NCBI GenBank assembly: GCA_030425645.1
Contig: JAUHZK010000005.1
Coordinates: 186,001 to 250,000 of the forward strand
Source: Gammaproteobacteria bacterium
GTDB taxonomy: Bacteria; Pseudomonadota; Gammaproteobacteria; JAPPPA01
Length of the DNA stretch: 64,000 nt
Direction of reading: 5' to 3'
Shown: in pieces, positions 1,274 through 37,005 of the stretch
Position numbering within the stretch: position 1 is the stretch's first letter
Layout: each line of letters begins with the position of its first letter
Notes under the pieces: model-generated
What the model was told of the DNA's origin: nothing
What the model saw: the letters and a program-made list of their open reading frames with translations, nothing else
Databases searched by the model: none
Translations under genes and position numbers: made by a program

Positions 1274-1717
1274 CTAGGCGGCACATTTCTTTTCAATGGT
1301 GCGCAAGATGCTGTCGAAACCTTTATGGCCATCAGCCGCTAAACGCTTGCCTATAAAACCGCCGATTAGCGGGATTCGGACATTAGAATCTGAGACCCAA
1401 CGCACATCGGTTTTGCCATTGTTGTCGGTGAGTTCAACCCGCCCTAAAAGATGCTCGAGCAACGGCGGTGTCATTTTCACAATGCGATATTCAAATAGGG
1501 TTGGACGTTCAAACGCCACCACGTCTTCAAAGAAGGTGACCGGCCCTGCCTTAATACGGCGCTGCGCCCCTAGGCCATTGGTTTCGCTGTTACCTTCACG
1601 AATCAACTCGGAGTCATCAAGGCCGCGAAACTGTTTGTAGTTGGCATGATCGGTGAGCATCTCAAACACTTTCTCGATGGGTGCGTTTAGGGTGCGCGTG
1701 ACTTCAATATTTACCAT
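1274..1717 (-). CDS. SRPBCC-family (START-like) protein
   Basis: A 147-residue protein with the START-like/polyketide-cyclase fold pattern: an N-terminal strand (VEVT/IEVTRTLNAPIEKVFEMLTD style), a mid-protein FEDVVAFERP segment, and a C-terminal helix typical of a hydrophobic-ligand cavity. Such proteins bind lipids, quinones or aromatic ketides. The ATG at 1717 has an AGGAA site seven bases upstream; the longer open frame to 1768 has none. It is the last gene of the seven-gene operon, 61 bases after the DsbA-family gene, so it may bind the hydrophobic substrate or an intermediate. The exact ligand is unknown. Confidence 0.75.
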   Translation of the reverse strand: MVNIEVTRTLNAPIEKVFEMLTDHANYKQFRGLDDSELIREGNSETNGLGAQRRIKAGPVTFFEDVVAFERPTLFEYRIVKMTPPLLEHLLGRVELTDNNGKTDVRWVSDSNVRIPLIGGFIGKRLAADGHKGFDSILRTIEKKCAA

Positions 1718-1778
1718 GATTATTCCTGTATTCTCTGTTCCACGATGCCCACTTGAAAGCGGGCTCAACTTAGCCTGC

Positions 1779-2390
1779 TTAGGCTTCCGCCGCCGTTATC
1801 GCCGCTATTTTTTCTTCCACCATATTCAGCGGCTCGTAACCCATGCCCAAAGAACGCCAACGGTCGCCCCGCTTAATCAGCAAGGTTGGATAGCCGCCCA
1901 CCGCGTATTGTTGGGCGCGCTCAAATTGTGCCGCAGTGGCTGCAATCATTTCATCACTTTCAAAATTCAGCAAAAACATCGGATGTGCAATGCCAAATTC
2001 AGTCGCAATGTCCGCAAGCACATTCGTGTCAGTGACGTTTTCAGCCTGCGCATAAAAGGCCCGCTGTATTGCTGCCATCATCGGCAGGCTATATTCGGGT
2101 ATTAAGGCCTGCACCGTCACTACTGCGCGGCAGGCTGGCTCGGTGTTATAGACAAAACCTTCAGGAATGCCGTTTTCAAAATCAAACGGCAAATCCGTCG
2201 CCTGCTGCACATGCTGCCAGTGATTCTGAATTTGCTGGCGATAGGCCGTATTCAATGGACGCGTTTCACCCGCACGCAAACCACCCATTACCACTTCCAC
2301 GTGATGCTTTTCTGCCAGCGCAGTAATGACTGATGAATAGCCATAACACCAGCTGCACATTGGGTCTGCAAAATAGAGCAAGTCAGCCAT
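1779..2390 (-). CDS. DsbA-family thioredoxin-fold protein (FrnE-like)
   Basis: A 203-residue protein beginning with a thioredoxin-fold strand and a CSWC redox motif at about residues 12-15 (FADPMCSWCYG). A cis-Pro loop is recognisable in VGGYPTLL. This matches cytoplasmic DsbA-family oxidoreductases related to FrnE and 2-hydroxychromene-2-carboxylate isomerase, because no signal peptide is present. The ATG at 2390 is preferred. A TTG at 2405 overlaps the stop of the upstream membrane hydroxylase gene and could be used by translational coupling; neither start has a good ribosome site. Its job in the operon is not evident; a redox or isomerase step is possible. Confidence 0.8.
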   Translation of the reverse strand: MADLLYFADPMCSWCYGYSSVITALAEKHHVEVVMGGLRAGETRPLNTAYRQQIQNHWQHVQQATDLPFDFENGIPEGFVYNTEPACRAVVTVQALIPEYSLPMMAAIQRAFYAQAENVTDTNVLADIATEFGIAHPMFLLNFESDEMIAATAAQFERAQQYAVGGYPTLLIKRGDRWRSLGMGYEPLNMVEEKIAAITAAEA

Positions 2391-2401
2391 ACAGAATGCT
2401 A

Positions 2402-3193
2402 TCAACGCTTATGCGTAATCGGATAAACCAGCTGTTTTACAAAACCCTCAGGCATTGGCTCTTCAATCCCAAAAGCCTGAGGCACTTGGCCCTTCGGCTG
2501 GTAGTAGGTACCAAACACCATATCCCAAACAGGCAAGAAACCACCGAAGTTTTTCTCGTAAGCCGCGGGATCCGTACTGTGATGCCAGCGGTGGAAAACC
2601 GGGCTCGCTAGGAAGTAGCGAAATGGTCCGAAGGTCCAATTTACATTGGCATGCAAAAACACGGCATACGCTGCTGTAAACGGCGCAAACAATACAAAGG
2701 TGTAAGGGCTAAAGCCGAGAGCAATCAACGGTGTCACATAGACAAGCTGTGCGCCAATTTCATTAAATGGATGAAAACGCGTTGCGCTTAACCAGTCTAA
2801 ATTTTCTGAAGAATGATGTACTGCATGCGTCGGCCAGAATGGTGCCAAGTGAAACATGCGGTGTTGCCAATAGCTTAGGAAATCAGCCAGCAAGAATACC
2901 AATACCATTTGCAGCCAAAACGGTAGCTGCGACAGCGGGCCAAAGCCGTTCCAATAATTACTTAAAGGTAAGTCCCCTAAGATAAAAACCGGCAATACCG
3001 CTAAGAAAACCACCCAAGGAGCCGCCACACGGGCGACAAAGCTCTGAGCCAAATACCAAACGGCATCTGCCGCCCAAGCTTTACGTATGGTTTTGTAATG
3101 TGGCAGCTGCGGCCACAAACGCTCCAAGCCAATCAATAAGGCTGGCAACAAGATTAACCCGACAAGCAGGCCAACTATTTCTTGCTGTGACAT
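2402..3193 (-). CDS. Fatty-acid hydroxylase/sterol desaturase family membrane protein
   Basis: A 263-residue multi-pass membrane protein with the histidine clusters of the di-iron fatty-acid-hydroxylase superfamily: HRMFH, HAVHHS, a later HANVNW and HRWHHS. These clusters bind two irons on the cytoplasmic face and hydroxylate or desaturate lipid-like substrates. The start has a GAGG site about nine bases upstream. It sits 32 bases after the RND exporter gene and runs into the DsbA-family gene, so it belongs to the same transcript. Within the operon it could hydroxylate the hydrophobic substrate; the true substrate cannot be read from sequence. Confidence 0.88.
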   Translation of the reverse strand: MSQQEIVGLLVGLILLPALLIGLERLWPQLPHYKTIRKAWAADAVWYLAQSFVARVAAPWVVFLAVLPVFILGDLPLSNYWNGFGPLSQLPFWLQMVLVFLLADFLSYWQHRMFHLAPFWPTHAVHHSSENLDWLSATRFHPFNEIGAQLVYVTPLIALGFSPYTFVLFAPFTAAYAVFLHANVNWTFGPFRYFLASPVFHRWHHSTDPAAYEKNFGGFLPVWDMVFGTYYQPKGQVPQAFGIEEPMPEGFVKQLVYPITHKR

Positions 3194-3225
3194 AAGCAGC
3201 TACCTCGTTGGCGCTATAGAGCGGC

Positions 3226-5604
3226 TTAAGCCGCCTCGTTTGCCAAGTCTTTACCTCGAGCCATGCGCCGCTTAGCAAACCAAATCAACAATGTGGGCAG
3301 CAGGAAGAAGTCGGCCAACATGGCGCCACCAATAGCAAAGGCGGTGACCTGAGCCATAGAGGCATTCGGTGCAAATGGACTGGTGCCCATAATGGTAAAG
3401 CCGGCCACCAGAATCAGCGTAGTAACCACAATGGCGGCGCCCACGGTTTCGAAGGTATAACGCACCGCTTCCTCAGCGCTATAGCCCAACACACGCCGTG
3501 CTCGCAGGTACTTGCTGAGGAAGTGAATGGTGTCATCCACAATAATCCCCAGTGTCATGCCCGATACGGCAGCCATAGTGAATATGATTTGGCCATTCCA
3601 TAAGGCCCACACTCCAAAACCAATACCCAGCGGAACGAGGTTTGGCACCAGCGACAAAAAGCCCATACCTAGGCTGCGCAGGGCAAAAATCAGAATGAAT
3701 GAGATACCCACCAAGGCAAAGGTGGTGCCGCTATACATGCTGTCGATATTGCGCTTAGAAATATGAGAGAACATCACGGCCGGGCCGGTGCCTTCGCCAT
3801 AAAGCTGCGGTGCATTTTCTTGTAACCAAGCGCGGCCCATAGCCTCTAACTCACGTGTTTGGGCAGAGCCAACGTTATTCCAAGTCACCGTAAAACGGCT
3901 ACCAGATTTGTCGAGGTTAATTTGGTTGGTTAAGTCCAAACCAAAGGGCAGGCCCATTTCGTAAAGAAAGAGGTTATCGACCGCCAATTCACGCGACTCC
4001 GGAATGGCATAAGCCGCCGGGTCATCGCCATTCATCGACTTATTCACCCGCTTCATCATGGGGATGATGCTGTCTACATGGACCGTTTCAGGCCTCGCCA
4101 GCCAGAACGCCTCAAAGGCTTCTAAGATTTTCAGATATTCCGGATCGGCCACGCCCCAGCTTTCGCCAGTGTCTAAATCCCAGCCCGCTGCGTAAATACC
4201 GGTGATGTTTTCAAACATAAAATCAGTATCAGCACGGAAACGCACACGCTCGTCAAAGTATTCAGCAAAACGGTCGTCGGCAACGTTGTATTGCATACAC
4301 CAAATCAGCGCACCACACATCGCGGCACTCACCAACAACACGGGTTTGTATTTAGCGGCAACCCAGCCACCCATTTTGCCCATCATGTTCGACACCCAGT
4401 CTTTCTCGGTGCGGGCTTTAATAGGCAATAGGCTCATCATTGCTGGTAACAAGGTGACTGATGCAAAGAACGCGATCATCACACCAATGGCCGAGATATT
4501 GCCGAACTCTCGCAGTGGCGGCGCGTCGGCAAAGTTCATACTCAAAAAACCCAGTGCAGTCGTGATTGATGTCAGAAACACTGGCAACATATTTAGCTGC
4601 AGCGAATACACCAAGGCCTCGTGTTTATTTTTTCCTTCGCGCATCCCCACAATCATGCTCACCAGAATGTGAATACTGTCGGCCACCGCCAAGGTCATAA
4701 TCACCGTCGGTGTGCTCGCCGTCGGCGGCGTCAATTTCACACCTAGCGCGGCAATAATGCCCAACGCACCCATTGCCGAAATAGTCACCACAGAGAGCGT
4801 AGTGACAACACCGGCCCAGCTGCGCAGCAACAAATACATGGTGACAATCACCACCAAGTACATCATTGGAATTAAACCCGACAAGTCACTTTGCGCCGCC
4901 TCAGAGAAGGCGTTATTGAGCATGGTAGAACCGCTCATATAGGTGGTGAGGTGTGGGAATTTTTCTAACAAACGGGCTTCAAGATCACGTGCGGCGGTGA
5001 CCGTTTGCGGCACTTCTAGAATGTCTTCTTTGGGGAAGGTAAACGTCACCGACACCGCGGCAATTTTGCCTGCGCCGGCTAGCTTGTCGCTGGATACCAC
5101 GCGGTCGAGCAACAACGGCTCGTTTAGCACCACATCTTTAATTAAGGCCAGCTCGGCATCGGTAATGTTGTCCCAGTCTTCCGCCATTTCCGCTACCAAC
5201 AGGTCATCGCCATCGGCAATGGTGTGGGTAAAGTTGGTAATGGAATCTACCCGCGTACTAAACGGCAGCAACCAAGATTCCTCAGTCAGAAACTCAATCG
5301 CCGCCAAAGTCTCGCGGGTAAAAATGTCGACATCGCCATCTGGATCCAACACATAAAACACGTTGTCTACTTTGGTGTAGGTGTTTTCTAGATTGTCGAA
5401 GGCCAAGAGTTGCGGATTGTCTTTACCGAAAAACACCCGGTAATCGGTGTCAAAACCAATAAAGCTTTTAATACTCCAGAGTGCAGTAGCCAGCAGCGCC
5501 ACACTGGTCGCAATAATGAACCAGCGCAGTTTTAGTACGCCTTCGGCATAGCGGCCGACCGCCTCCTCGAAACGCGTAATTTGTGCTTTCTCTTGGGCGG
5601 CCAT
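3226..5604 (-). CDS. MMPL/RND-superfamily exporter
   Basis: A 792-residue protein with the duplicated RND plan: one N-terminal helix, a large periplasmic loop, a block of five helices near residues 240-400 (GLIPMMYLVVIVTMYLLL, then TPTVIMTLAVADSIHILV), a second periplasmic loop, and a second helix block near residues 630-780 with GIIVDDTIHFLSKY. The paired Asp residues in these helices fit proton-coupled transport. MMPL-type members move lipids, hopanoids or other hydrophobic compounds. The start has a strong GGAGGA site. It follows the acyl-CoA dehydrogenase gene by 33 bases. MMPL exporters often occur with DUF1302 and DUF1329 proteins, and a DUF1302 gene lies divergently at the operon's head. 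Confidence 0.88.
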   Translation of the reverse strand: MAAQEKAQITRFEEAVGRYAEGVLKLRWFIIATSVALLATALWSIKSFIGFDTDYRVFFGKDNPQLLAFDNLENTYTKVDNVFYVLDPDGDVDIFTRETLAAIEFLTEESWLLPFSTRVDSITNFTHTIADGDDLLVAEMAEDWDNITDAELALIKDVVLNEPLLLDRVVSSDKLAGAGKIAAVSVTFTFPKEDILEVPQTVTAARDLEARLLEKFPHLTTYMSGSTMLNNAFSEAAQSDLSGLIPMMYLVVIVTMYLLLRSWAGVVTTLSVVTISAMGALGIIAALGVKLTPPTASTPTVIMTLAVADSIHILVSMIVGMREGKNKHEALVYSLQLNMLPVFLTSITTALGFLSMNFADAPPLREFGNISAIGVMIAFFASVTLLPAMMSLLPIKARTEKDWVSNMMGKMGGWVAAKYKPVLLVSAAMCGALIWCMQYNVADDRFAEYFDERVRFRADTDFMFENITGIYAAGWDLDTGESWGVADPEYLKILEAFEAFWLARPETVHVDSIIPMMKRVNKSMNGDDPAAYAIPESRELAVDNLFLYEMGLPFGLDLTNQINLDKSGSRFTVTWNNVGSAQTRELEAMGRAWLQENAPQLYGEGTGPAVMFSHISKRNIDSMYSGTTFALVGISFILIFALRSLGMGFLSLVPNLVPLGIGFGVWALWNGQIIFTMAAVSGMTLGIIVDDTIHFLSKYLRARRVLGYSAEEAVRYTFETVGAAIVVTTLILVAGFTIMGTSPFAPNASMAQVTAFAIGGAMLADFFLLPTLLIWFAKRRMARGKDLANEAA

Positions 5605-5637
5605 GGCTACATCCTCCGGTTTTATTTTGGCTCAGGC

Positions 5638-7902
5638 TTAGGCGGCTTGCGACACATCCACCTGCGATCGGTCAGCACTATAATGGGTATTAGCTGACAA
5701 CGCATTTTCCATCATATCGAAATCAAATACGTCGACCTCGATCGCGGCTAAGCGAGCCGCTTTCTGGGCGGCAATGGCTTGCTGTTCCTCAGCATTAATA
5801 ATGCCTGCCGCGAGCGCCGCCTCGGCCAAGTCCTCAGCAGGACCACGGCCCAACTTACGGCTACGTTGCGCTTGCTGAACTTTTAACAGGGCTGGTTGCG
5901 CCGCCGCCATTAAATCGAAGGCATGCAGCAGACGTCCAGCGCCCGCTTGGCTAGCACCGGCACGATGCGCCAAGTCGGTGAGGCGCTCACGCGTTGCTGT
6001 GGGCTGCATCACCAGCGCTGCACTGGCGGCAATATCCGCTGATTTGGCACCACTGCTTAGGGTGTTAACCCGCAACATTAAGCTGCCCACCGTACGTAAC
6101 CAACGGCCGACAATCGGAGTATCAAAGTTTTGGTATATACCTTCGAAAGCGTTCTGCAATCGCTGCATGCTGGTGTCTAGCATCCAGGTCACCACAGGCA
6201 GATCCTGTTGCTGACGACCCTCCGCCTCCCAACGACGCGCCGTACTGAAGGCCAGATACATATTGGAAAAGGCATCAGCGAAATGCCCTGATAGCCGACC
6301 TTTCGCTTTTAATTTACTACCCAGTAACAGCATTGCTAGATTCACCAACAAGGCGTAACGCGCCGAGGCCCACGACAGACGGCGAAAATACTTGGCCGTT
6401 GGACCACCTACCGGGCTGCCAGCGCTATAACCACGCGTTAGGCCACGCACTACCGTGCGGCCGGCGCTCATCACCACATGACCCAACCAACCCATTAAGT
6501 TACGACGGAATGCCGGCACGTCATCCTCTTCCAACGCCTGCAACACCTGCTGCGCGTAAGGATGGCAGCGCGTTGCGCCTTGGCCAAAAATGATTAGAGT
6601 GCGCGTCATAATATTCGCACCTTCTACGGTTACCGGCATAGAGGCACCGTTGTAGGCAGCGCCAACAATATTATTGGGGCCTTGCATAATGCCCGCGCCA
6701 GAAAATACGTCTTGCGCATCCAGCGCCAGGCCACGGCAAATTTCAGTCGTGGTTTGTTTTAACGCGGCCGAAACCACCGGCGGTTTAATGCCAGCGTCGA
6801 GTCCACCGAGGGCGACATTGTGTGCCGCGGTAATGCCATAGGTTAAACCTGCTAAGCGTGCCAGCGGCTCTTGCACGCCTTCCATCTGCCCGATCGACAT
6901 GCCGAACTGCTGACGCACCGCGGCGTAAGCCCCGGTGGTTTGCGCAAACAGCTTGGCGAATCCAACCGCGTTGGCAGGCAGCGACACCGCGCGACCACCG
7001 GCTAAGGCTTCCATTAACATTGCCCAGCCTTGGCCAACACCCTCTGCGCCAGCAATAACATTGCTTAGCGGCGCGACCACATCCTTGCCAACAATCGGTC
7101 CGTTATAAAACGGCAGACCATTGGGCCAATGGCGGTCACCTAGAGACAAACCCTCCATACCGCGGGTTAGCAGCACACAGGTGATCCCTAAATCTTCGCC
7201 TTTACCCAAAAGATTGTCTGGGTCACGCACAACGGCGGCCAAGCTGACAATGTCGGCGACTGGCGCCAGCGTGATATAGCGTTTGCGGAAATTCAGTTTT
7301 AGTTTTAGCTCGCCATCGTCATCTTTAAATACCAAGGCATCGGCTTTAATCGAGGCGGCATCAGAACCGGCGGTCGGCTCGGTTAGCGCGAAGCAAGGAA
7401 TCATTTCGCCACTGGCCAACTTCGGCAAAAAGCGCTGCTTTTGCTCATCGGTGCCATAAAGCTCTAATAACTCAGCTGGGCCAACTGAATTGGCGATTAC
7501 GGCAAAACTACCGCTCATGCCGGCCGCCATTAGTTTCATCATCACCATTGCCGTGCCGTAATGACTAAAACCTGAGCCGCCCCATTCTTTGGCGATATTC
7601 AGGCTCATAAAACCGTTGTCACGGATGTATTGAATAGTCTCGGCCGGCACCTGTGCTGTGCGTCGCTCTTTCCAAGCGTCGGTGCGTCGACATAGCTCTT
7701 CAACCGGCCCTTCAAGAAAGGCTTTTTCTTCGGCACTCAACTCTGGCCATGGCGTTCTTAGCATCTCTTTGAAGTTGGGGTTGCCGGAGAAAAACTCCCC
7801 ATCCAGCCAAACATCGCCAGAGGCTAAAGCTTGTTTTTCGGTTTCGGAAATACGCGGCAACATGCCGGCGTTTTTCATGGTTTTCATTAATTGCGCAAAC
7901 AT
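5638..7902 (-). CDS. Acyl-CoA dehydrogenase, FadE-like
   Basis: A 754-residue flavoenzyme that oxidises acyl-CoA to the 2-enoyl-CoA, the first step of beta-oxidation. The acyl-CoA dehydrogenase core covers roughly residues 80-460 and shows the flavin/substrate segment CFALTEPTAGSDAAS, with a later DVFSGAGIMQGPNN stretch. The remaining C-terminal 250 residues match the extra FadE-type (DUF1974) domain. E. coli FadE is 814 residues, so this is slightly short, mainly at the N-terminus. A GAGGAG site precedes the ATG. It lies 41 bases after the acetoacetate-decarboxylase-like gene and before the exporter. Whether it prefers fatty acyl chains or ring-cleavage products is not known. Confidence 0.9.
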   Translation of the reverse strand: MFAQLMKTMKNAGMLPRISETEKQALASGDVWLDGEFFSGNPNFKEMLRTPWPELSAEEKAFLEGPVEELCRRTDAWKERRTAQVPAETIQYIRDNGFMSLNIAKEWGGSGFSHYGTAMVMMKLMAAGMSGSFAVIANSVGPAELLELYGTDEQKQRFLPKLASGEMIPCFALTEPTAGSDAASIKADALVFKDDDGELKLKLNFRKRYITLAPVADIVSLAAVVRDPDNLLGKGEDLGITCVLLTRGMEGLSLGDRHWPNGLPFYNGPIVGKDVVAPLSNVIAGAEGVGQGWAMLMEALAGGRAVSLPANAVGFAKLFAQTTGAYAAVRQQFGMSIGQMEGVQEPLARLAGLTYGITAAHNVALGGLDAGIKPPVVSAALKQTTTEICRGLALDAQDVFSGAGIMQGPNNIVGAAYNGASMPVTVEGANIMTRTLIIFGQGATRCHPYAQQVLQALEEDDVPAFRRNLMGWLGHVVMSAGRTVVRGLTRGYSAGSPVGGPTAKYFRRLSWASARYALLVNLAMLLLGSKLKAKGRLSGHFADAFSNMYLAFSTARRWEAEGRQQQDLPVVTWMLDTSMQRLQNAFEGIYQNFDTPIVGRWLRTVGSLMLRVNTLSSGAKSADIAASAALVMQPTATRERLTDLAHRAGASQAGAGRLLHAFDLMAAAQPALLKVQQAQRSRKLGRGPAEDLAEAALAAGIINAEEQQAIAAQKAARLAAIEVDVFDFDMMENALSANTHYSADRSQVDVSQAA

Positions 7903-7943
7903 GGTCTGTCTCCTCGCGTCAGTGTCAGCTCTACGGCCAACGA

Positions 7944-8630
7944 CTAAGCGTCTGTTATTGGACTAATAGTTGAAATTGGAAAGGTCATCTTGAATTGGGT
8001 GGTGGCGACTGCCAGCAGCGGCTTCGCCTTGCCCAGCTCGGCAAACTCTTCGGGGTCGGCCCAGGCTTCAGTCACACTGGCCAAACCAGCCCAACCACTG
8101 GCGGCGGGCGTGTAGTCAAAACGCTGGCCTTGCCACTCTTGGGTTAAGGTGCGCAACGACCGCGGCACCAGCGCTGTGGTCACTGGCAGCGCGACGGCCA
8201 TTTTGCGAAAGCCTAGGCGGCAAAATACTTTGCCGTCGCGACTCACCGTCGCTTTAACGCCACCTTTGCTGTCGTACTGCAAATCGAAGTCAGCATGAAA
8301 TTTAGGAATCCCCCAGTTACGGCGGCCGTTGACCACACTGGCTTCCGACGACACAAAAATCCGACTAATGCTGTAACGTTTTTTGCCACCTGGCTGCCGA
8401 AAGCGTCCCGGGATAAAGAGCAACTCGTAATACGGCCCCACCGCTGAACTGCTGTAGTCAACCAACATGATGTAACCCATGTCACCAGCAAGTCGGCGGC
8501 TTTTCATTGACGGCGGCGTAAACGGGTCGTCCGCCAACACGCCGTCGGCAAAACGTAAGGCGGCAATATAGCCACGCCCGGTTAATTGCCAGGGTGCCGG
8601 CGCCACTGGCAGCGATTGTTCGTTTGTCAT
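7944..8630 (-). CDS. Acetoacetate decarboxylase-family protein
   Basis: A 228-residue protein with the ADC-fold signature NWGIPKFHADF near residue 105 and a preceding SEASVVNGRR segment. Classical acetoacetate decarboxylase forms a Schiff base on a lysine; the Lys in GIPK is conserved in the fold, but I cannot assign catalysis with confidence, since many family members do other reactions on beta-keto acids or have unknown roles. Its ATG overlaps the TGA of the monooxygenase gene by one base (TGATG), which implies translational coupling. Placed between a Baeyer-Villiger-type enzyme and an acyl-CoA dehydrogenase, it may act on a keto acid or lactone intermediate. Confidence 0.8.
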   Translation of the reverse strand: MTNEQSLPVAPAPWQLTGRGYIAALRFADGVLADDPFTPPSMKSRRLAGDMGYIMLVDYSSSAVGPYYELLFIPGRFRQPGGKKRYSISRIFVSSEASVVNGRRNWGIPKFHADFDLQYDSKGGVKATVSRDGKVFCRLGFRKMAVALPVTTALVPRSLRTLTQEWQGQRFDYTPAASGWAGLASVTEAWADPEEFAELGKAKPLLAVATTQFKMTFPISTISPITDA

Positions 8631-10099
8631 CAGTTACTACTCAATTCGTAATCATCAAAATTAACGCACCGGGTCTGCAGGCGATAGCGCACCGTAAAGT
8701 CCGGCCAGTTGTTGGTACTTTTACCGCTGGCATGTCGGTACCAGTTATTACAGCCAGCACTCCACACTGCGTCAGCGGCTTTGTCCTGAACCGTTTTATT
8801 AAACTGCTGCATTACCTCAGGACGTAAATCCATTTGTTTGACGTCACCTTGGCGCAAGCGCTTAACGCACTGCACCAGGTAATTAATTTGCGCCTCCAAC
8901 ATAAACACAATCGAATTGTGTCCGAGGTTGGTATTAGGGCCGTAAAGCATGAAGAAGTTAGGGAAGCCATCCACGGTCATGCCGTAATACGCCTCGGCAC
9001 CATCATGCCAACGGTCATTCAGATCTCGACCAGCCGTCCCAGTAATGCGTATTGGCGACACAAACTCAGTTGCTTTAAAGCCGGTACCAAAGACAATCGT
9101 GTCAGCGTCGATCAACTGGCCACTTTCGCTGACTAAGCCATCGTTTTTAACGGCGGCAACACCTTCGGTCACAACCTCAACATTAGGTCGGCTTAAGGCC
9201 GGGAAATAGTCGCTCGAAAGCAATATGCGGTTACAACCCAGAGGATAGTTCGGCGTGAGCTTTTCTCGCAAAGGCAGGTCTTTAACGGCCATACGCCGAT
9301 AGGTATTGCAGACCAAATTGAACAGCGGTCGAATCCAACTATTGCTGGACAGCGCCGCAAAACGCCACTCTAGATTCCAATAAATTTTTCGGCGTTCCAA
9401 GCGACCGAAAAACGGTAACTTCTCAAACAGCCATTTTTCAATGCGGCTGTAATGGCGGTTGGGCTTTGCCAGCACCCACGGTGGTGTGCGCTGAAAAACC
9501 GTCAGCTTTTTCGCATGCTTAGCAAGATGAGGAATGAACTGAATGGCACTGGCCCCAGTTCCAACCACAGCAACATGCTTATCGCTGAGGTCGTAGTCGT
9601 GATCCCAATAGGCGGAATGGAACTGCTTGCCGCCAAAACCGGCCAAACCCGGCAAATTAGGAATCGCCGGCTGACTGAGCTGGCCAGTACCTTTGACCAA
9701 AACTTGGGCGGTTACCGAAAAGCCGTCAGCACAGCTGATGTTCCAGCCACAGCTGTTCTCACAATACGCCGCCTGCTCTACATCACTGGCAAAGCGAATA
9801 TAGTCATTCACGCCATACTTGGCCGCACATCGCTCTAAGTAGGCCCTAATTTCAGGCTGTGGAGAGAACTTACGCGACCACTGTGGATTAGGTTCGAACG
9901 AGAACGAATACAGGTGCGACGGCACATCACACTCCGCTCCCGGATAAGTATTGGCCTGCCACACGCCACCCACGGAGTCTGCGCGTTCAAGAATTATGAA
10001 GTCTTTGATACCGGCCTTGAGTAGCTGAATCGCCGTGCCAATACCGCCAAACCCCGCACCAATAATGGCAACCGAAACTGTCGTTGAATTTTGATTCAT
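8630..10099 (-). CDS. FAD-dependent Baeyer-Villiger-type monooxygenase
   Basis: A 489-residue flavoprotein with an N-terminal FAD Rossmann motif GAGFGGIG (residues 14-21), a second NADPH motif GTGASA near residue 180, and the family fingerprint FGGKQFHSAYWD just before it, matching FxGxxxHxxxW. This fingerprint marks Baeyer-Villiger monooxygenases and related flavin-containing monooxygenases, which insert oxygen beside a ketone to give an ester or lactone. The downstream FQRTPPWVLAKP stretch is also typical. It is the first gene of the minus-strand operon and shares the 10100-10236 control region with the divergent DUF1302 gene. A cyclic or steroid/terpenoid ketone substrate is inferred from context only. 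Confidence 0.88.
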   Translation of the reverse strand: MNQNSTTVSVAIIGAGFGGIGTAIQLLKAGIKDFIILERADSVGGVWQANTYPGAECDVPSHLYSFSFEPNPQWSRKFSPQPEIRAYLERCAAKYGVNDYIRFASDVEQAAYCENSCGWNISCADGFSVTAQVLVKGTGQLSQPAIPNLPGLAGFGGKQFHSAYWDHDYDLSDKHVAVVGTGASAIQFIPHLAKHAKKLTVFQRTPPWVLAKPNRHYSRIEKWLFEKLPFFGRLERRKIYWNLEWRFAALSSNSWIRPLFNLVCNTYRRMAVKDLPLREKLTPNYPLGCNRILLSSDYFPALSRPNVEVVTEGVAAVKNDGLVSESGQLIDADTIVFGTGFKATEFVSPIRITGTAGRDLNDRWHDGAEAYYGMTVDGFPNFFMLYGPNTNLGHNSIVFMLEAQINYLVQCVKRLRQGDVKQMDLRPEVMQQFNKTVQDKAADAVWSAGCNNWYRHASGKSTNNWPDFTVRYRLQTRCVNFDDYELSSN

Positions 10100-10236
10100 T
10101 AATCTACTCTACCGTCAGTTATGGCTAACTTAATTGCTCATCCGCCCATGAGTTAGTGGCAAATTAGTCAGCTTTCGGTTTAAAGTGACTGGACAATAAA
10201 TACAAATTATCAAGCGCTTGCTTGGTGGAGACAGAC
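10100..10236. promoter_or_regulatory. Divergent control region with CAAGCGCTTG palindrome
   Basis: This 137-base gap separates the divergent monooxygenase operon and the DUF1302 gene, so it must hold both promoters. It contains a perfect 10-base palindrome CAAGCGCTTG at 10211-10220, immediately before the DUF1302 ribosome site, and a weaker CTCAT/ATGAG inverted repeat at 10137-10152. Either could bind a repressor. No clear -35/-10 pair is assigned. Confidence 0.45.
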
Positions 10237-12423
10237 GTGATTAAACCACAATACCGTGTATTAGTGGCACGCATTAGCGTTGGCATTACCTTAGTTCTAA
10301 CGGCACCTTTCGCTGTCGCCTTTAAAGGCGAAATTGGACCGTTAAATTATCGACTCTCGACAACTCTCAGCGCTGGCGCTGCCTGGCGAATGGAGAAGCC
10401 CGACGAGAACTTTATTGGCCGCACCAACCTGCCAGGGCAAGAAAACTTTTGCCAAGCCAGCGCCTTAGACCCAGTAGGTACTTGCGTGGTTACCGGTCAC
10501 GCCGAATACCTTGCTGGGCGCGGCAATATGGGTAATAACGCCGACAACGGCAACATGAACTTTGACGAGCATGATTTAACCTTTGCCACCGCCAAAGTCA
10601 CCTCAGACCTCGAACTTAACTGGGGCAATAGTGGCGCTTTTTTCCGCTTTTACGGCTTTAAAGATTGGGCCCACGACGGCCGCAAAGAGAGACACTGGAA
10701 CACTATTTTCCAGCCAGCCGAAACGTTCTTAAATGCTGAGCAAGAAGAAGACTTGGTAGCGAATGCCGAGTTGCTAGATGCCTACATTTACCACGACTTC
10801 GAGATTGGCGACCACACACTCAGCGTTAAGGTTGGCGACCAAGTCATTAGCTGGGGAGAGTCACTAATTAACGTTATCAACAGCCTTAACGTCATCAGCC
10901 CACCCGATGCCGTTAAGGTTCGTTACCCCGGCATGAACCTGAAAGAGATTTTTCGTCCTATCAGCGCCGTCGACGTTGCGTATGACATTAGTGAAAACCT
11001 TTCGGTAGAGGCCTTTTATCAGCTCAAGTGGAACAACGTTCATATCGACCCACAGGGCGCATTCCACTCTCACTCTGACGCGGCTGAAGCCGGCGGCGAC
11101 TACATTATGATCGACTTCGGCAAAGGCGCCGAGGATCCTGACAACCTTAACGACAGCCGACTCACCTTTGCCGATCCAGTGCCCTTGGACCAAGCCGGCC
11201 GCGGCTGTTTCAATCCGGATTCGGTTGGCTTAGACACACACCCTTATGGCTATGCTCACCGCGGCGGCACCCTCGGCCGCACTGTCTGTCGCGAGCCAGA
11301 CATGACACCGAGCGACAACGGCCAGTGGGGACTGTCCATGCGCTATTACGCCGAATGGCTGAACGATACCGACATCGGCCTTTACTACATGAACTACCAC
11401 AGCCGTTTGCCTTACGGCAGCTTCCGCGCAACTCTCCCCGGCGTGGACCTGCAAAGCGCTGCGGCACTGATTCCGGGTGGCGCACAACTGATCGACGCCA
11501 TTAACAACCTCACCAGCCTTTTGCCGATTCCTGGCAACCTTTCGCTCGGCGTAGCCGAAGTGGCCGGCGCCCTAATCTTCGCCGACACAATGAATTTGAT
11601 CTTGGAATATCCCGAAGATATCGAGGTTTACGGCTTTAGCTTTAACACCACCTTTGGTGATATTTCGGTGTCGGCTGAATACGCGCACAGGCCGAACCTA
11701 CCGGTCCAAATTGGTGGTGCCGATTTGGTTTACTACGCGCTGGCACCCGCTTTTGGCGACAGTCGCCGTGCGGCCATTCCAAGTCAGGTAGAAACCTATC
11801 GTTACGGTCCCCAAGGTCGGCTTCCTGAAGGCGGCGAAATTATTCATGGTTACGAACGCTTAGAAGTGGGCCAAGGTGACGTGGTTAGCATTTGGGCGAC
11901 CTCAAACGCGCCGTTTTTTGCCGACCAATGGATTGTGATTGCGGAAGCTGGCTTTACTAAAATTTGGGATATGCCGAGCCGAGATGAACTACATTTCGAT
12001 GGCCCCAATACGGTTACTCACCAATCACAAGGCCGAGATGAAGCCGAAGCCGCCTTCGCGGCGAATCCACTAGACCCAAATCAGACCTTGCCGTTAATCG
12101 TGCTGAATCCTCAGCGCCAAACCGACGGCTGGGCAGAGTCATTCTCTTGGGGCTATAAGCTGCTGTCTATCCTTGACTACCCAGGTCTATTCAAAGGCTT
12201 TAACGTTAAACAAATCACTGGCTTCTTCCACGACGTTAACGGTATTGGCCCTTCCCCTGCGCCCACTTATGTTGAAGGCAGCAAGGAAATCCTATTCGGC
12301 TTGGACGTCAGCAAAGGCCCTTGGTTAGGCGAGCTACGTTATAAGGTGCATACCGGTGCCGGCAGCAACAACCCGGATAGCGACCGCGACGAGCTCGCGA
12401 TAGCGATCAAATACACCTTCTAA
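10237..12423 (+). CDS. DUF1302-family outer-membrane protein
   Basis: A 728-residue exported protein. It has an N-terminal signal (VARISVGITLVLTAPFAVAF), a long body rich in alternating strands, the DUF1302-typical ISWGESLIN segment and a C-terminal Phe (AIKYTF) expected of an outer-membrane barrel. DUF1302 proteins commonly pair with DUF1329 proteins and MMPL exporters and are thought to handle hydrophobic substrates at the outer membrane; the exact function is not established. The GTG at 10237 is chosen because GGAG sits six bases upstream; an upstream TTG at 10222 overlaps that site. It diverges from the catabolic operon. Confidence 0.85.
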   Translation: MIKPQYRVLVARISVGITLVLTAPFAVAFKGEIGPLNYRLSTTLSAGAAWRMEKPDENFIGRTNLPGQENFCQASALDPVGTCVVTGHAEYLAGRGNMGNNADNGNMNFDEHDLTFATAKVTSDLELNWGNSGAFFRFYGFKDWAHDGRKERHWNTIFQPAETFLNAEQEEDLVANAELLDAYIYHDFEIGDHTLSVKVGDQVISWGESLINVINSLNVISPPDAVKVRYPGMNLKEIFRPISAVDVAYDISENLSVEAFYQLKWNNVHIDPQGAFHSHSDAAEAGGDYIMIDFGKGAEDPDNLNDSRLTFADPVPLDQAGRGCFNPDSVGLDTHPYGYAHRGGTLGRTVCREPDMTPSDNGQWGLSMRYYAEWLNDTDIGLYYMNYHSRLPYGSFRATLPGVDLQSAAALIPGGAQLIDAINNLTSLLPIPGNLSLGVAEVAGALIFADTMNLILEYPEDIEVYGFSFNTTFGDISVSAEYAHRPNLPVQIGGADLVYYALAPAFGDSRRAAIPSQVETYRYGPQGRLPEGGEIIHGYERLEVGQGDVVSIWATSNAPFFADQWIVIAEAGFTKIWDMPSRDELHFDGPNTVTHQSQGRDEAEAAFAANPLDPNQTLPLIVLNPQRQTDGWAESFSWGYKLLSILDYPGLFKGFNVKQITGFFHDVNGIGPSPAPTYVEGSKEILFGLDVSKGPWLGELRYKVHTGAGSNNPDSDRDELAIAIKYTF

Positions 12424-12444: not shown

Positions 12445-13698
12445 CTAGAAGAAGTGGCGATATTCAAGCAATACGTGGTCGTCGCGATCCAAGGCAGCGG
12501 CCGGGTTAGGCGCACCATCAATCACATCTGGATTGCCTGAGATTTGCCGATATTCCAAGGTTAGCTGGCCGCTTTCGCCCAAACGACGGCTTGCTTCTAG
12601 CAGCCCTAAACGGCCATCGTTTTCACGATCTTCAACCACACCCAACAAAATCTCGGTGCTCTGAACATCATTAAAGGCAATGCGGGTACCGACAAACACA
12701 TCATCTTGGAACAAAGTGGCCTGTGAGTTGCGGCTGTCGCGCATATATTCGGCCAACAAGCCGACATCCGCTGAGCTACCAGCAAATCCAACCAAGGTGT
12801 ACTCAAAGCCGGCGGCATAGGCACCATAGGTTTCGACAAAGTCTTTGCGACGATAACCTTCAGCCTTTAGCAACCAGCCACCTACTTGGCCAGTCACATC
12901 AAACGACAACTGCTGGATTTGTTCGTAAAACGGCAGGATCACCGTGGTCGACGGCGGTGACGCATCCGGAATCAAACGAGGATCACGGCTAGTACCGTCA
13001 AAGTAACTTAAACCGACATCAAAGCCGGAAAAGCTATTGCTGTAGCGGAAAGCATAATCGATGTGGCGATCCTTATCAGGGTCTTCATACACCGCGTTAT
13101 CGTTATCCAAAACGACCGCGCCAAAGTCGAAACGCAAACGCCCTTCTTGGCCAGGCAAGGTTCGTTCGCGGAAGGCAGGCAACACAAATGCTTCGAAACT
13201 GCCGACTGCCGAATACCAGCTCACTCGTAGCATTGGCTGGCCGAGCTTGTCTTCGCCATCCAGGTTTTCTACTTGGTCGGTCTGGTTGATGATATCAATC
13301 AGGTGCGCAGACTCCGTGGCACCCCAAAACACTTTGCTAATACCGGCTAGCACTTCCCAATTGCCGATATACCAGTTCAGATAGGCTTCGCGTAGATCAA
13401 AGTGCGTACGCTCGTCATCCTCGCTATCCCATCGCGCAAACGGACTAATAACAGCACGGCCATTCCCGCTTTCAAAATCATGCGCAAACTCGGCCTCAAA
13501 CACGCCCGAATAATCGCCTTTAGCTTGCACTGGGTTTGCCGGGTCATCAAAAAAGTGACGAACCTCAACCGCGATTTCAACATCACTACTCCAAGCCATT
13601 TTCGGTGGCATCTCGGTAACGCGATAATTCATATTGCCCGCGGCCGCCGCAGTGGCAAATAGACTGGTAGCGGCGAACAAAGCTAAACCCAAGCGCAT
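12445..13698 (-). CDS. Predicted outer-membrane beta-barrel protein, unknown family
   Basis: A 417-residue exported protein with a clear signal peptide (LGLALFAATSLFATAAAAG), many alternating hydrophobic/polar strands with aromatic girdle residues, and a C-terminal LLEYRHFF ending in Phe, as expected for BAM-inserted barrels. I do not recognise a named family. The ATG at 13698 is chosen because GAGGAG lies at the right spacing; the ATG at 13713 overlaps that ribosome site. It converges on the DUF1302 gene, 21 bases away, and diverges from the amidohydrolase gene, so it is probably a porin or channel used by the same neighbourhood. Confidence 0.7.
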   Translation of the reverse strand: MRLGLALFAATSLFATAAAAGNMNYRVTEMPPKMAWSSDVEIAVEVRHFFDDPANPVQAKGDYSGVFEAEFAHDFESGNGRAVISPFARWDSEDDERTHFDLREAYLNWYIGNWEVLAGISKVFWGATESAHLIDIINQTDQVENLDGEDKLGQPMLRVSWYSAVGSFEAFVLPAFRERTLPGQEGRLRFDFGAVVLDNDNAVYEDPDKDRHIDYAFRYSNSFSGFDVGLSYFDGTSRDPRLIPDASPPSTTVILPFYEQIQQLSFDVTGQVGGWLLKAEGYRRKDFVETYGAYAAGFEYTLVGFAGSSADVGLLAEYMRDSRNSQATLFQDDVFVGTRIAFNDVQSTEILLGVVEDRENDGRLGLLEASRRLGESGQLTLEYRQISGNPDVIDGAPNPAAALDRDDHVLLEYRHFF

Positions 13699-13859
13699 GG
13701 GGTGTCTCCTCATAATTACTGTGCCCGCACCTTAATACAAATCTAGCTATTTAGCGTTGTTTATGCCGACAGCGCGAATTCGGCGTAAGATCCAAAAAGC
13801 CTTAGCAATCATTTATAGGTAAGATAGCTAATTGAGTTAGTAGTCGCGGATAACGCAGC

Positions 13860-19020: not shown

Positions 19021-20481
19021 TCACCGTACACGCATGCGTAAATCGACTTCAAAGCTGGGGTCACCCAATAAGCCGCTCGCCGATAAGCTGCCAGTGAAGT
19101 TAATGCGGACGTCGGTTACTAAGGCATCAAACCCATCCACATCCGCAGTTGGGCTATAAGTAAAGTTGCCACTACCGTCGTCATAACTGACATTGGCAGC
19201 AGCGCAACTTAAGCCGCTGCTAGGTGCACCATCACGGAAAGCCACTGAACCGCAGTTTTCCGTATTCGCCACATACACATCCATGTTGTCCGGCACAGGG
19301 TCGTCCAACTGTACGTTGGTCGCCACGCCGTCACCAAGATTTTCTACTCGAATCGTATACAGGACTTCGGCGCCGGGAATCGCTTTCGGGTTAACGGCAT
19401 CATTAATTGGGTCTCGATCAACTAGCACAGTCTTGCGCAGTAACGGTTCAGGCTGCGGCTCGATGTCCGCCACAAACGGCTGGCCAAAAACCAATACCCC
19501 AAAGTCTTCCGTAGTGTGGTTACGTTCGCTGTCTCGGTCCACATCTTCGTCAACCGCTAAGCCCACCTGAGTCGCAGACAACGCACACTGCCGCGCCCAG
19601 CCACCGTCGCCACCGCCATGCGTAATTTTGCTAGCAAAAACCTTTGGCACGGCGCTGTAAGTGTTAAAGAAACCGGCATTTGGCCGATGGTAACAACCGT
19701 TACCCCAACCCCGCACGTTGTCGCCAGTACGGAAAGATTCGTAGGCAACATCATCACCATTATTATCCTGAAAAACACCAGCCGAACCGTTGTCCATCAC
19801 AACATAGCCCATCGTTTCAGCTGACAAGTTGAACAACAAAGGCTGGTTATTCACTTCGCTTCGCTCAATGGCTGTTTGAAAACTCGTCGCAGCAACATTC
19901 CGCGTCGTCATCGTCACCCAAACTTCCGATTGCTGGTTATTGCCCGGCGCGCCAGACAGAAGTGATTCGTTGTTCAAGCTCTGCTGTAAGCCCACCAGAA
20001 CCGGGTTACTTGAGAAGCTACCATTCAGATTCTGCGTTGCCCAACTCTCAGCCCCACCGACACCATTACCATGCTGCAACGCAGAGGTAGTTATGGTGCC
20101 CGCTTCAATTACATCGCCATTCGGGAAGGTATGCACCCCAGGCTCAATAGCCAAATAGGAAACTACAGCTCCATTGGTTTCATAGCGGCCGTTCGAACCT
20201 GCTGGCTCAACAATGGCAATTTGGAAACCCACATTGGTCACATTTTGGATGTGGACAGCGGCGGGTTCGTCGTTCGCTGCTCCTTGTGTGCCCGGAGTTA
20301 GGGATAAGACAACGGGGGTGACCCCTACTGGAAAGGGCTGTTGGAATGTTACGGTGTTATAGAAATTCCAGTTAAGCGTTACCTCGTCAACTTCAAGCTG
20401 CCATGCAAAGCTAAGCTGAGATAGGCCAGTTAGTACAACCGCCGCCAGCGCCCTTTTTACCCCCAACAACACCGGTCTCAA
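19021..20481 (-). CDS. Secreted protein with H-type-lectin-like and DUF11-like domains (copy 2)
   Basis: A 486-residue protein with a signal peptide (ALAAVVLTGLSQLSFAW). The first 300 residues hold two repeats resembling H-type lectin sandwiches (TFQQPFPVGVTPVV and later FSSNPVLVGLQQSLNNE). The last 150 are DUF11-like: NPKAIPGAEVLYTIRVENLG, then NVQLDDPVPDNM. It starts with TTG, overlapping the TGA of the upstream gene (TTGA), so it should be coupled to it. It is a clear paralogue of the 20478-21959 product in order, length and domain layout. Surface adhesion or matrix binding is likely but not shown. Confidence 0.7.
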   Translation of the reverse strand: MRPVLLGVKRALAAVVLTGLSQLSFAWQLEVDEVTLNWNFYNTVTFQQPFPVGVTPVVLSLTPGTQGAANDEPAAVHIQNVTNVGFQIAIVEPAGSNGRYETNGAVVSYLAIEPGVHTFPNGDVIEAGTITTSALQHGNGVGGAESWATQNLNGSFSSNPVLVGLQQSLNNESLLSGAPGNNQQSEVWVTMTTRNVAATSFQTAIERSEVNNQPLLFNLSAETMGYVVMDNGSAGVFQDNNGDDVAYESFRTGDNVRGWGNGCYHRPNAGFFNTYSAVPKVFASKITHGGGDGGWARQCALSATQVGLAVDEDVDRDSERNHTTEDFGVLVFGQPFVADIEPQPEPLLRKTVLVDRDPINDAVNPKAIPGAEVLYTIRVENLGDGVATNVQLDDPVPDNMDVYVANTENCGSVAFRDGAPSSGLSCAAANVSYDDGSGNFTYSPTADVDGFDALVTDVRINFTGSLSASGLLGDPSFEVDLRMRVR

Positions 20482-21959
20482 TCCACTCGAATCCTGAAGT
20501 AAAGATCAAACTGCGGAGTGCCCGTATTCGAATGACTAAACTCGTTGAGAAAGTTAATTCGGTAATGCGTCACCGCATTATCGAATCCATCTGCATCGGG
20601 CGTCGGCTGATAGGCCCAATTATTGCCACCATCGTTGGAGAACTCTAATGAGTCCAAAGTCGGTGCTAAGGGGTTGTAGTTATATACCAACCCACTCGAT
20701 GGGCTGCCGTCTTGAAAGCGCACGGGCCCGCTATTAGCGCCATTAATATCACCAACAAACAACGTCGTATTCGTCGGCACCGCATCACTTAAAACAACAT
20801 CCGTGGCCGGCCCGTCGCCGTGGTTACCGGCGTTAAGTCGGTACTGCACTACTGCTTCAGGAATCGCCTTTGGGTTACTCACGCCATTAATTGGATCCGA
20901 CACCACTTGGTCAACAAGTTTCATAAAGACAATGTCAGGCTCGCCAAACTCAGCGTTAAAAGCCCGGCTAAACGCAATCACGCCGGTCTCGTTAGACTGA
21001 CCATTATTTTTAGAACGCTCATTATCTAAGTCACGGTCTTCGTCACCACGAAGCTGTACCGAATCCCTATCCTGAGTATTCTGGCGATAACGCACCCAAC
21101 CACCGTCGTTGTCACGGTGGTTATTCAGAGATGCGCCGATAATCGGCTGCGCACCGGCACCCAAATCGGTGTAGTTCACCGTAATAATATTATTAGTACC
21201 GTCCCAGCCGCCTAGGCGACCACTTCGAGCCGCTGTCACATTAACGTTATTACCGCTGTTATCTTCAAAAGTATCAAAGGCGCCAATTTCCATCGCCAGC
21301 CATCCAAAATTTTCCGCCAAGATGACACTGCCGTTATTGGCACCGGACCTTTCTAAGGCCGCATCAAAGCCACTGGCGTTGACGTTATCTATTGCCGTTG
21401 TTAGCCAAGGCTGCGAAAAGCTAGCCGGCGGCAAACCGGTTTCATTGTTCATAGTTTGAATTTGAGCAACAACGACTGGCGTAGTCGAGAAGGCATCTGG
21501 AAAGGTAACATCTTCCCAGCCCTCTGCTGGCAACGGCGGTTGCGGAGGCAAGGTAATCAGTGGCGAATTGAAGGCTCGTTGCCGTTCTGCTGTATTAACA
21601 GAGCCAGCTTGAATACGCGTGCCGTTAGGCAACTCATAGCTACCTGGCTCAATGACAATGTAATGCGCGGTCATTGCCACGTGGGGGCCGTCATTCCCTG
21701 CTGGCTCAGCTTGCACAGCCTCAAACCCAAGCGGCGTCACAGCACGCACACGGATATCACTTGGATCTCCACCCTGCTCTGACGGCAACATAAACACCAA
21801 CGGCGTTACATCGTAGGTTTGCTGAAAAACAACCGGAGTAAAGTTAGCCACGTTAAACGTATTTTGAATAGTGACCGTACCTGCCTCCATTTTCCAAGCA
21901 AGTGCGGCATTGGGAAGCAGCAGCGCCACCAACCATAGGCTGCGGCCTAAGCAGCGCAT
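20478..21959 (-). CDS. Secreted protein with H-type-lectin-like and DUF11-like domains (copy 1)
   Basis: A 493-residue protein with a signal peptide (SLWLVALLLPNAALAW). Two lectin-like repeats (FTPVVFQQTYDVTPLVFM and FSTTPVVVAQIQTMNNE) are followed by a DUF11-like region: NPKAIPEAVVQYRLNAGNHG and VVLSDAVPTNTT. The paralogous neighbour has the same plan, so the pair arose by tandem duplication. The ATG overlaps the TAA of the 1936-residue protein's gene by one base. The predicted location is the cell surface or periplasm. H-type lectin similarity is judged by eye and would need profile searches. Confidence 0.7.
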   Translation of the reverse strand: MRCLGRSLWLVALLLPNAALAWKMEAGTVTIQNTFNVANFTPVVFQQTYDVTPLVFMLPSEQGGDPSDIRVRAVTPLGFEAVQAEPAGNDGPHVAMTAHYIVIEPGSYELPNGTRIQAGSVNTAERQRAFNSPLITLPPQPPLPAEGWEDVTFPDAFSTTPVVVAQIQTMNNETGLPPASFSQPWLTTAIDNVNASGFDAALERSGANNGSVILAENFGWLAMEIGAFDTFEDNSGNNVNVTAARSGRLGGWDGTNNIITVNYTDLGAGAQPIIGASLNNHRDNDGGWVRYRQNTQDRDSVQLRGDEDRDLDNERSKNNGQSNETGVIAFSRAFNAEFGEPDIVFMKLVDQVVSDPINGVSNPKAIPEAVVQYRLNAGNHGDGPATDVVLSDAVPTNTTLFVGDINGANSGPVRFQDGSPSSGLVYNYNPLAPTLDSLEFSNDGGNNWAYQPTPDADGFDNAVTHYRINFLNEFSHSNTGTPQFDLYFRIRVD

Positions 21960-27769: not shown

Positions 27770-27785
27770 AACATGCTCTTAGACA

Positions 27786-27822
27786 CCAAGACCCAAGGCC
27801 TATTACTAGACCTTGGGCTTGG
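27786..27822 (-). other. Intercistronic hairpin upstream of the 1936-residue gene
   Basis: Arms CCAAGACCCAAGG (27786-27798) and CCTTGGGCTTGG (27811-27822) pair over 12 bases with one bulged A. The hairpin fills most of the 71-base gap between the two surface-protein genes. It lacks a T-run on the minus strand, so an RNA-stability or attenuation element is more likely than a simple terminator. Confidence 0.5.
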
Positions 27823-27840
27823 CTGTCAGAGGTTTGGCAG

Positions 27841-29154: not shown

Positions 29155-29201
29155 TTCTCTATTCCTCTGACATGAGAATTACTTAAGGTTTTGCTATCAA
29201 G

Positions 29202-29690
29202 TTATTGCACGACCGCGCGATAGCTCACGGTGCCGGTTTTACCCGGCTGCAATGCGTAGTTCACTGTCCAACGCACATGGCTAACGTCTTTAAACGTCGC
29301 CGCACGCTGTTCGCCATTGGCAAGGGTTACGTCTAAATCAATTAGATTGCCGTAACGCTTGCCGCCGTCGACAGACACTGAAATTTGGGTTCCGGCTCCA
29401 AACGCAGAGCCTTGGCGATACCAGGTATGCTCTGGAATCGGGTTGTTAATGACCAAGTCACGGGCTTCACTGTCGCCCTCGTTGGAAAAGCTGAGGATGT
29501 AAACCACTTCCTCACCCGGTAATACTTTTTCGGCTGGCACCAGTTTTGTGGCCGATTTACCGTCTTCAGTCACGGTTACTTCTTGGAAAACCTCAGATTT
29601 AAAAACCACTTTGTCTTCCGCTAGGGCCGCCAACGGCAGCATGGCTACAGAAAACAACATTGCTTTGATCGAAGCGTTCATCTTTTTCAT
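29202..29690 (-). CDS. Small secreted DUF11-like protein
   Basis: A 162-residue exported protein. The signal peptide (AMLFSVAMLPLAALA) is followed by one DUF11-like sandwich: VLPGEEVVYILSFSNEGDS, then NNPIPEHTWYRQGSAFG and a closing RWTVNYALQPGKTGTVSYR. The ATG at 29690 is preferred, with GAGG upstream; a GTG at 29705 overlaps the end of the upstream gene. One module without barrel or anchor suggests a soluble partner or building block of the cluster. Confidence 0.7.
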   Translation of the reverse strand: MKKMNASIKAMLFSVAMLPLAALAEDKVVFKSEVFQEVTVTEDGKSATKLVPAEKVLPGEEVVYILSFSNEGDSEARDLVINNPIPEHTWYRQGSAFGAGTQISVSVDGGKRYGNLIDLDVTLANGEQRAATFKDVSHVRWTVNYALQPGKTGTVSYRAVVQ

Positions 29691-29701
29691 CTCTAATTTC
29701 C

Positions 29702-36411: not shown

Positions 36412-37005
36412 GCGTGGCTAAACGCGCTGGCCGCCGCATTTTTAGCAACGATATTGGCAGCATTAATTAAACCCATAGAACTTGTTTATCATTTTGTGCT
36501 CAAAGCGTTATAGTGGGTGCCGCTAATTTCAGCGTACGCGTTGCAAAGAACCGTAGCGCCCCCAAGAAAGTAATCGGGCAAGGAGACAAACCCATGAACA
36601 AACTGCAAACCACACTGGCTTGCGGTGCAGCACTTACCGCTGCATTTGCTAGCTTTTCAGTTAGCGCCAAAGTATCAGAAGCAGAAGCCGCCAAACTAGG
36701 TGCCGAGCTTACGATGGTTGGTGCTGAGCGCGCCGGCAACGCCGACGGCACTATCCCAGAATACGAAGGCGCAGCTTTCTGGACCGACAAAGAAAAGAGC
36801 TACACCTACAACGAAATCGAAGCCATGTCGAAAGAGACACAGGCTGAATTGCTACTAGGCCGCGTTAAAGGCGAAGAGCCACTCTTCACCATTACCGCTG
36901 CCAACGTTGGCGAACATGCTGACAAACTTTCTGAAGGCCACAATGATACGCCACTAGTTAACTAGACACTCCTAATGGTTAAAATACCGATCAACAGGAG
37001 TGGTT

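Follow-up and report, generated by a model that had tools for sequence, protein, structure and literature searches.

A proposed composite operon of an MMPL-type envelope transporter and ketone/acyl-CoA enzymes in a gammaproteobacterium

The locus described here is a run of seven genes, encoding an MMPL transporter and several predicted enzymes, in a 64,000-nucleotide stretch (contig C11:186001–250000, the window) of a gammaproteobacterial genome of 2.75 Mb that is 99.5% complete. The nearest experimental parallel is the long-chain alkane response of Thalassolituus oleivorans, in which n-C28 is reported to induce an MMPL/LolA protein (42-fold), the porin encoded just downstream of it, a Baeyer-Villiger monooxygenase (BVMO), and an esterase (PMC6304351). 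By description, the BVMO TOL_0709, the MMPL/LolA protein TOL_3187, and the porin TOL_3188, which has no conserved domains, resemble the BVMO, the MMPL transporter, and a putative beta-barrel outer-membrane protein, OMP2, of the window; OMP2-type proteins, like TOL_3188, match no Pfam family above the cut-off. The two systems differ in the setting of the monooxygenase: the locus number of TOL_0709 is far from those of the other two, and the protein clusters with EthA, whereas the window BVMO adjoins genes for an acetoacetate-decarboxylase (ADC)-like protein and a DUF1302 outer-membrane protein.

The AmeABCD system of Castellaniella defragrans, which is composed of DUF1302, DUF1329, YCF48-like, and HAE3-type RND proteins, has been described as an exporter for detoxification (PMC6394551). 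The window shares with it an HAE3-type RND protein and a DUF1302 protein near catabolic genes. However, the window operon contains neither a DUF1329 nor a YCF48-like gene, a DUF1329 gene being located 24 kb away (36.6–39.2 kb) and split by an insertion sequence, and its MMPL protein probably belongs to another branch. Membership in AmeABCD was rejected because the operon lacks two of the four components and its RND protein belongs to a different branch. The AupAB alkane uptake system was also set aside as a parallel, since its paper describes AupA as FadL-like and mentions neither MMPL nor RND. A DUF1302/DUF1329/RND set of Pseudomonas putida is reported to be needed on Tween 20 (PMC10866462), and together with AmeABCD it suggests that related transporters serve hydrophobic substrates, in the case of AmeABCD by export. 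On the strength of the Thalassolituus response and these two sets, we therefore propose that the window carries a composite operon, in which an envelope transporter and part of a ketone/acyl-CoA pathway serve a long hydrophobic aliphatic or isoprenoid compound. The proposal is tentative, and we give it a probability of about 0.45. Most parts of the gene combination are known and their arrangement is new; a literature search, mostly of titles and abstracts, did not find the combination described.

The seven open reading frames (ORFs) of the run are located on the minus strand from position 10099 to 1274. They encode a type I BVMO of 489 residues (8630–10099), an ADC-like protein of 228 residues (7944–8630; PF06314, 43 bits, cut-off 29.8), a FadE-type long-chain acyl-CoA dehydrogenase of 754 residues (5638–7902; ACDH_C, 256 bits; NCBIfam NF007000, 835 bits, cut-off 600), an MMPL/HAE3-type RND transporter of 792 residues (3226–5604; PF03176), a membrane di-iron protein of the fatty-acid hydroxylase family of 263 residues (2402–3193; PF04116), a DsbA-family thioredoxin-fold protein (1779–2405; PF01323), and an SRPBCC (Polyketide_cyc2) protein (1274–1717; PF10604). 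The spacings along the run, beginning with BVMO/ADC, are −1, 41, 33, 32, −4, and 61 bases, and depend on the starts of the last two genes: the 4-base overlap between the hydroxylase and DsbA genes becomes a gap of 11 if the latter starts at ATG 2390, and an in-frame TTG would place the start of the SRPBCC gene at 1768; the sister-species orthologue begins close to the position that corresponds to ATG 1717. The genes of the run are predicted to be co-transcribed. The DUF1302 gene diverges from the run on the plus strand (10222–12423, start possibly GTG near 10238; PF06980, 487 bits), and its product ends in a C-terminal Phe. The intergenic region between the two divergent genes (10100–10221) is the presumed promoter region of both; a promoter scan of the locus returned four promoter-like matches against 10.7 expected from shuffled sequences, and thus no excess. 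OMP2 is encoded on the minus strand at 12445–13713, so that the BVMO and DUF1302 genes sit between it and the rest of the run. A first-pass annotation of the window had given the same order and families for the seven genes, gaps of at most 61 bases with some overlapping ends, and the divergent DUF1302 gene, all of which the ORF list and family searches bear out; it omitted OMP2.

The conserved partners of the transporter were identified from its relatives. The MMPL protein was searched for in 369 genomes of the class, of which 89 have a match at E≤1e-200, and 40 loci outside the host genus, from 38 genomes, were compared (28 best places and 12 lower in the list; one, L170, ends directly after the MMPL gene). 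A LolA-like gene follows downstream on the same strand in 36 of the 40 loci, and an OMP2 homologue, 0.6–1.4 kb away, in 31. A hydroxylase homologue occurs about 6 kb from the MMPL gene in two loci, and homologues of BVMO, ADC, FadE, DUF1302, DsbA, SRPBCC, DUF1329, and YCF48 in none of the 40 (E≤1e-8). By these counts, MMPL and OMP2 are parts of an MMPL-LolA-OMP cassette that is widespread. Beta-barrel proteins typically end in a C-terminal aromatic residue, and the last residue of the OMP2 homologues is Phe in 29 and Tyr in 2 of the 31. The four homologues that were scanned match no Pfam family at E≤0.01, and window OMP2 has one sub-threshold match, to Wzi (19.7 bits, cut-off 30.1). A fold model of OMP2 built from two sequences (pLDDT 28) was not used. 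The two regulators scanned upstream of MMPL loci are of the TetR type. OMP2 is linked to MMPL in the window as well, but lies upstream and is split from the run by BVMO and DUF1302, and no LolA-like gene is present among the genes next to the window MMPL. The window locus is therefore a derivative of the cassette rather than a member of it.

The operon is also present in a sister species (G001; 88% complete), the only genome of the same family among 56 relatives searched. One of its contigs carries OMP2, ADC, FadE, and the start of MMPL, and a second carries the end of MMPL followed by hydroxylase, DsbA, SRPBCC, and EamA. The OMP2 and ADC genes are direct neighbours with a terminator-like hairpin between them, and OMP2 heads the operon (L012). 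No orthologue of BVMO or DUF1302 was found in this genome (best matches 47% and 42%, respectively), and because the OMP2–ADC junction lies on a single contig, both genes are truly absent from that place despite the 88% completeness. Their placement thus differs either by gain in the host species or by loss in the sister. The first-pass annotation had called for a comparison of gene order in related genomes and described the operon as built around the BVMO and an MMPL exporter. The comparison finds the rest of the run intact behind OMP2, with BVMO and DUF1302 missing from that place, which contradicts a BVMO-centred operon; the transporter family is confirmed, and the protein may or may not be an exporter; its conserved partners are OMP2 and LolA, and not BVMO. 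Protein identity between the two species decreases from 98% for the hydroxylase and 96% for MMPL to 73% for OMP2 and 67% for the ADC-like protein. Four-fold-site divergence (L083, L012) is 0.36–0.39 for the hydroxylase and MMPL genes (2402–5604) and 0.52–0.68 for the others, as if the former were under extra constraint or had been exchanged.

The window BVMO carries the intact fingerprint FxGxxxHxxxW(P/D) (FGGKQFHSAYWD at residue 155) between two Rossmann (GxGxxG) motifs, GAGFGG at 14 and GTGASA at 180. The closest solved structure is that of steroid monooxygenase (PDB: 4ap3), in the alignment with which GCNR of the window protein is positioned opposite GAKR, and the arginine (KR/NR) is kept; we take this residue to be the catalytic one, equivalent to R337 of PAMO. 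The sequence thus identifies the protein as a type I BVMO, predicted to convert a ketone to an ester. Three other BVMOs of the host and the sister species pair up clearly in a BVMO tree, whereas that of the window has no partner. The BVMO and DUF1302 genes show no sign of foreign base composition (GC 0.507 and 0.532, compared with 0.49–0.57 in other genes). FadE carries the motif VEGAN, presumably the site of the catalytic base, and the DsbA-family protein carries CSWC. The hydroxylase has the three histidine boxes HRMFH, HAVHH, and HRWHH. At E≤1e-40, it has relatives in 4 of 321 genomes of the class and in 4 of the 85 genomes of the order of G026, a genome included in both counts. Synteny of the hydroxylase gave no clue to function, as its relatives in G026, G385, G324, and G321 lie without detectable homologues of other operon proteins alongside; in the G385 locus (L108), the filter for overlapping ORFs also hid the hydroxylase itself.

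The ADC-like protein was modelled with a pLDDT of 91. The model superimposes on the acetoacetate decarboxylase 3bgt (chain D) with a Z-score of 21.1 and a root-mean-square deviation of 3.1 over 215 residues, and on ADC-like aldolase-dehydratases with Z-scores of 18.6–19.1. The clostridial decarboxylases (PDB: 3bgt, 3bh2) and the aldolase-dehydratases (Swit_4259; PDB: 4zbt) share with it the fold (Z 18.7–21.1) and the position of the Pro-Lys lysine, but are only 11–15% identical to it, and the second lysine of PKK is not kept. Lys110, at the position of the catalytic Schiff-base lysine, and Glu69 are invariant in all 33 aligned sequences, and Lys110 aligns with the first lysine of WGFPKK in 3c8w, in a weak match (E 0.6). 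As both enzyme types share the fold, the model settles the predicted ADC fold of the window protein and not its reaction.

An ADC profile search of the genome collection returned 32 loci, ten of which have a BVMO gene on the same strand within 7 kb, encoding a protein 43–47% identical to the window BVMO. All ten are from taxa labelled as Nevskiales-type, save one Rhodospirillales metagenome-assembled genome. In clusters such as those of Stenotrophobium (L021) and Solimonas fluminis (L017), the ADC-like protein (47–54% identical to that of the window) and the BVMO are encoded on the same strand, in most cases accompanied by an acyl-CoA dehydrogenase, as in the window. Unlike in the window, the acyl-CoA dehydrogenase is of the short type, no MMPL, OMP2, hydroxylase, DsbA, or SRPBCC homologue was detected in the ten loci, and genes for an AraC regulator, a ligase, a hydratase, an esterase, or RoxA are present. 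Across the ten loci, the additional genes variously include AraC regulator, AMP-ligase, short acyl-CoA dehydrogenase, enoyl-CoA hydratase, thiolase, esterase, and GMC oxidoreductase, and DUF1302 in two. The ADC-linked BVMOs form their own group in the tree with 84/99 support (not starred), from which the long-branched window BVMO is separated, and direct co-inheritance of BVMO and ADC was rejected on this basis. In Alcanivorax and a relative (L025–L027, L035), the ADC-like gene directly follows a gene of the hotdog thioesterase type (DUF4442/YiiD_C in L026, the one scanned), an arrangement resembling thioesterase-plus-decarboxylase routes to methyl ketones.

RoxA-like genes are present in four of the ten ADC-BVMO loci (L013, L019, L020, L021), some of them cut by the locus edge. 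Both proteins run against Pfam fall into the RoxA-like family, and both run against the PDB match 4b2n, which we take to be RoxA, at E ~1e-120. Four of the proteins are complete, two encoded in L019 and two in L021; each has three CxxCH motifs, and their lengths of 801–838 residues compare with 662 in the 4b2n chain. The products of rubber oxygenases are reported to terminate in CHO and CO-CH3 groups (PMC6311187). ADC and BVMO might together constitute an undescribed route by which long isoprenoid or aliphatic chains with a methyl-ketone or beta-keto end are processed, a beta-keto acid giving first a methyl ketone and then an acetate ester. In Nevskiales, this route would handle rubber-oxygenase products; in the host genus, it would have been joined to the trans-envelope MMPL-OMP2 transporter, with chain-end processing and uptake or export produced as a single unit. 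We regard this extension as doubtful; the ADC-BVMO-RoxA linkage in Nevskiales is nevertheless a candidate for explaining what becomes of the methyl-ketone end that rubber cleavage leaves.

In the composite operon that we propose, the core would consist of the inner-membrane RND/MMPL transporter and OMP2, its conserved partner in the outer membrane. The ADC-like, FadE, membrane hydroxylase, DsbA-like, and SRPBCC genes would have been placed into this core in the host genus, and BVMO and DUF1302 would have come to lie between OMP2 and the rest in the host species. The cargo of MMPL and OMP2 would most likely be a long aliphatic or isoprenoid compound of high hydrophobicity, which they would move across the envelope and the enzymes of the operon would oxidise: the ADC-like enzyme would produce a (methyl) ketone by decarboxylating a beta-keto acid, the BVMO would convert the ketone to an ester, hydrolases encoded elsewhere would cleave the ester, and FadE would feed beta-oxidation. 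The passage from ADC to BVMO is the boldest step of the proposal, and the substrate, the order of the reactions, and the direction of transport are likewise predicted. Several observations weigh against the proposal. The operon contains no esterase or alcohol dehydrogenase gene and, as noted above, no LolA-like gene; the sister operon is maintained without a BVMO, so that the core role does not depend on this enzyme, and in the tree the window BVMO forms a long branch outside the ADC-linked group. The ADC-like protein is only 13–14% identical to characterised decarboxylases in the structure comparison, and its fold also houses aldolase-dehydratases. No RoxA gene was found within the examined stretch of six of the ten ADC-BVMO loci, nor in the loci taken from the host genome, which cover a small part of it and were not complemented by a genome-wide search. 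Finally, AmeABCD is described as an exporter, so that uptake is not implied.

A second cluster in the host genome (C2:268–280 kb; L066, L111) supports a working link among these families. Its genes encode the closest MMPL paralogue (53%), a DUF1302 protein, an alpha/beta hydrolase, a BVMO (36%), SDRs, and two proteins of the hydroxylase family, and the sister species (L101) has counterparts of the BVMO, SDR, and hydrolase-like members. The same families could instead modify and export an endogenous lipid, shaped by the hydroxylase, FadE, SRPBCC, and ADC-like proteins and placed in or beyond the outer membrane by MMPL and OMP2. MmpL and HpnN proteins export lipids and offer a precedent, the hydroxylase and MMPL are the proteins best kept between the two species with the lowest four-fold divergence, and the hydroxylase weakly resembles the ornithine-lipid hydroxylase OlsE (112 bits, cut-off 475). 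HpnN has been described as a lipid exporter (PMC6394551). We nonetheless consider this explanation unlikely, as FadE belongs to a degradative dehydrogenase family, the Nevskiales relatives of the ADC-like protein occur in beta-oxidation-type clusters, and the operon has no acyltransferase or synthase. Detoxification or solvent tolerance, with MMPL and the outer-membrane proteins expelling hydrophobic compounds and the enzymes treating oxidised by-products, would agree with the joint presence of DUF1302 and RND proteins at the locus and with the reported loss of monoterpene tolerance upon AmeABCD deletion in Castellaniella (PMC6394551). This is highly improbable, however, given an enzyme set larger than needed and an MMPL protein that shares no more than 21% identity over 149 residues with the RND protein encoded beside a DUF1329 gene in the same genome and is therefore probably not a member of the AmeD line.

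The first-pass annotation had favoured breakdown of a cyclic ketone, terpenoid, or steroid-like compound, in which the BVMO would open a ring before CoA-type oxidation. The best structural match of the BVMO, a steroid monooxygenase, and the presence of FadE and ADC speak for such a pathway, and BVMO-dependent progesterone pathways have been reported (PMC12239570). Degradation of the steroid nucleus is unlikely because KshA_C (PF19298), a single marker, has no match in the 99.5% complete host genome. The operon contains no lactonase or ring-specific enzyme, its sister lacks the BVMO, and the window BVMO has no demonstrated close kinship to characterised ring-opening enzymes, which makes ring catabolism improbable as a whole. 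Of the suggested substrates, the steroid-like compound is thus disfavoured and the cyclic ketone gains no specific support, while a terpenoid is retained in the acyclic, isoprenoid sense, through the RoxA linkage, and not in the cyclic one. A catabolic role itself is plausible, given the intact BVMO fingerprint and the recurrence of ADC together with BVMO in beta-oxidation-type clusters; the emphasis on the BVMO is not upheld.

Little is understood about the passage of very hydrophobic chains through the Gram-negative envelope. The MMPL-LolA-OMP2 cassette occurs widely, has been barely studied, and includes an outer-membrane partner outside Pfam. The window operon ties this cassette to named enzymes and thereby to a testable substrate class.

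The host genome has 8 DUF1302, 6 DUF1329 (two of them weak), and 25 MMPL-domain matches in total. The DUF1329 gene of the window (36593–39204) is broken after its N-terminal part by an IS3-type element (approximately 36963–38148; ends TAGACACT/AGTGTCTA), and three further long DUF1329 genes are present in the genome. A block of surface-type genes at 19021–30697 encodes, among others, a 1936-residue DUF11 and OmpA protein and an H-type lectin-like protein. The product of the gene at 51875–53743 combines a fatty-acid desaturase with a C-terminal part of the ferredoxin-reductase type in one fusion protein (FA_desaturase and Fer2).

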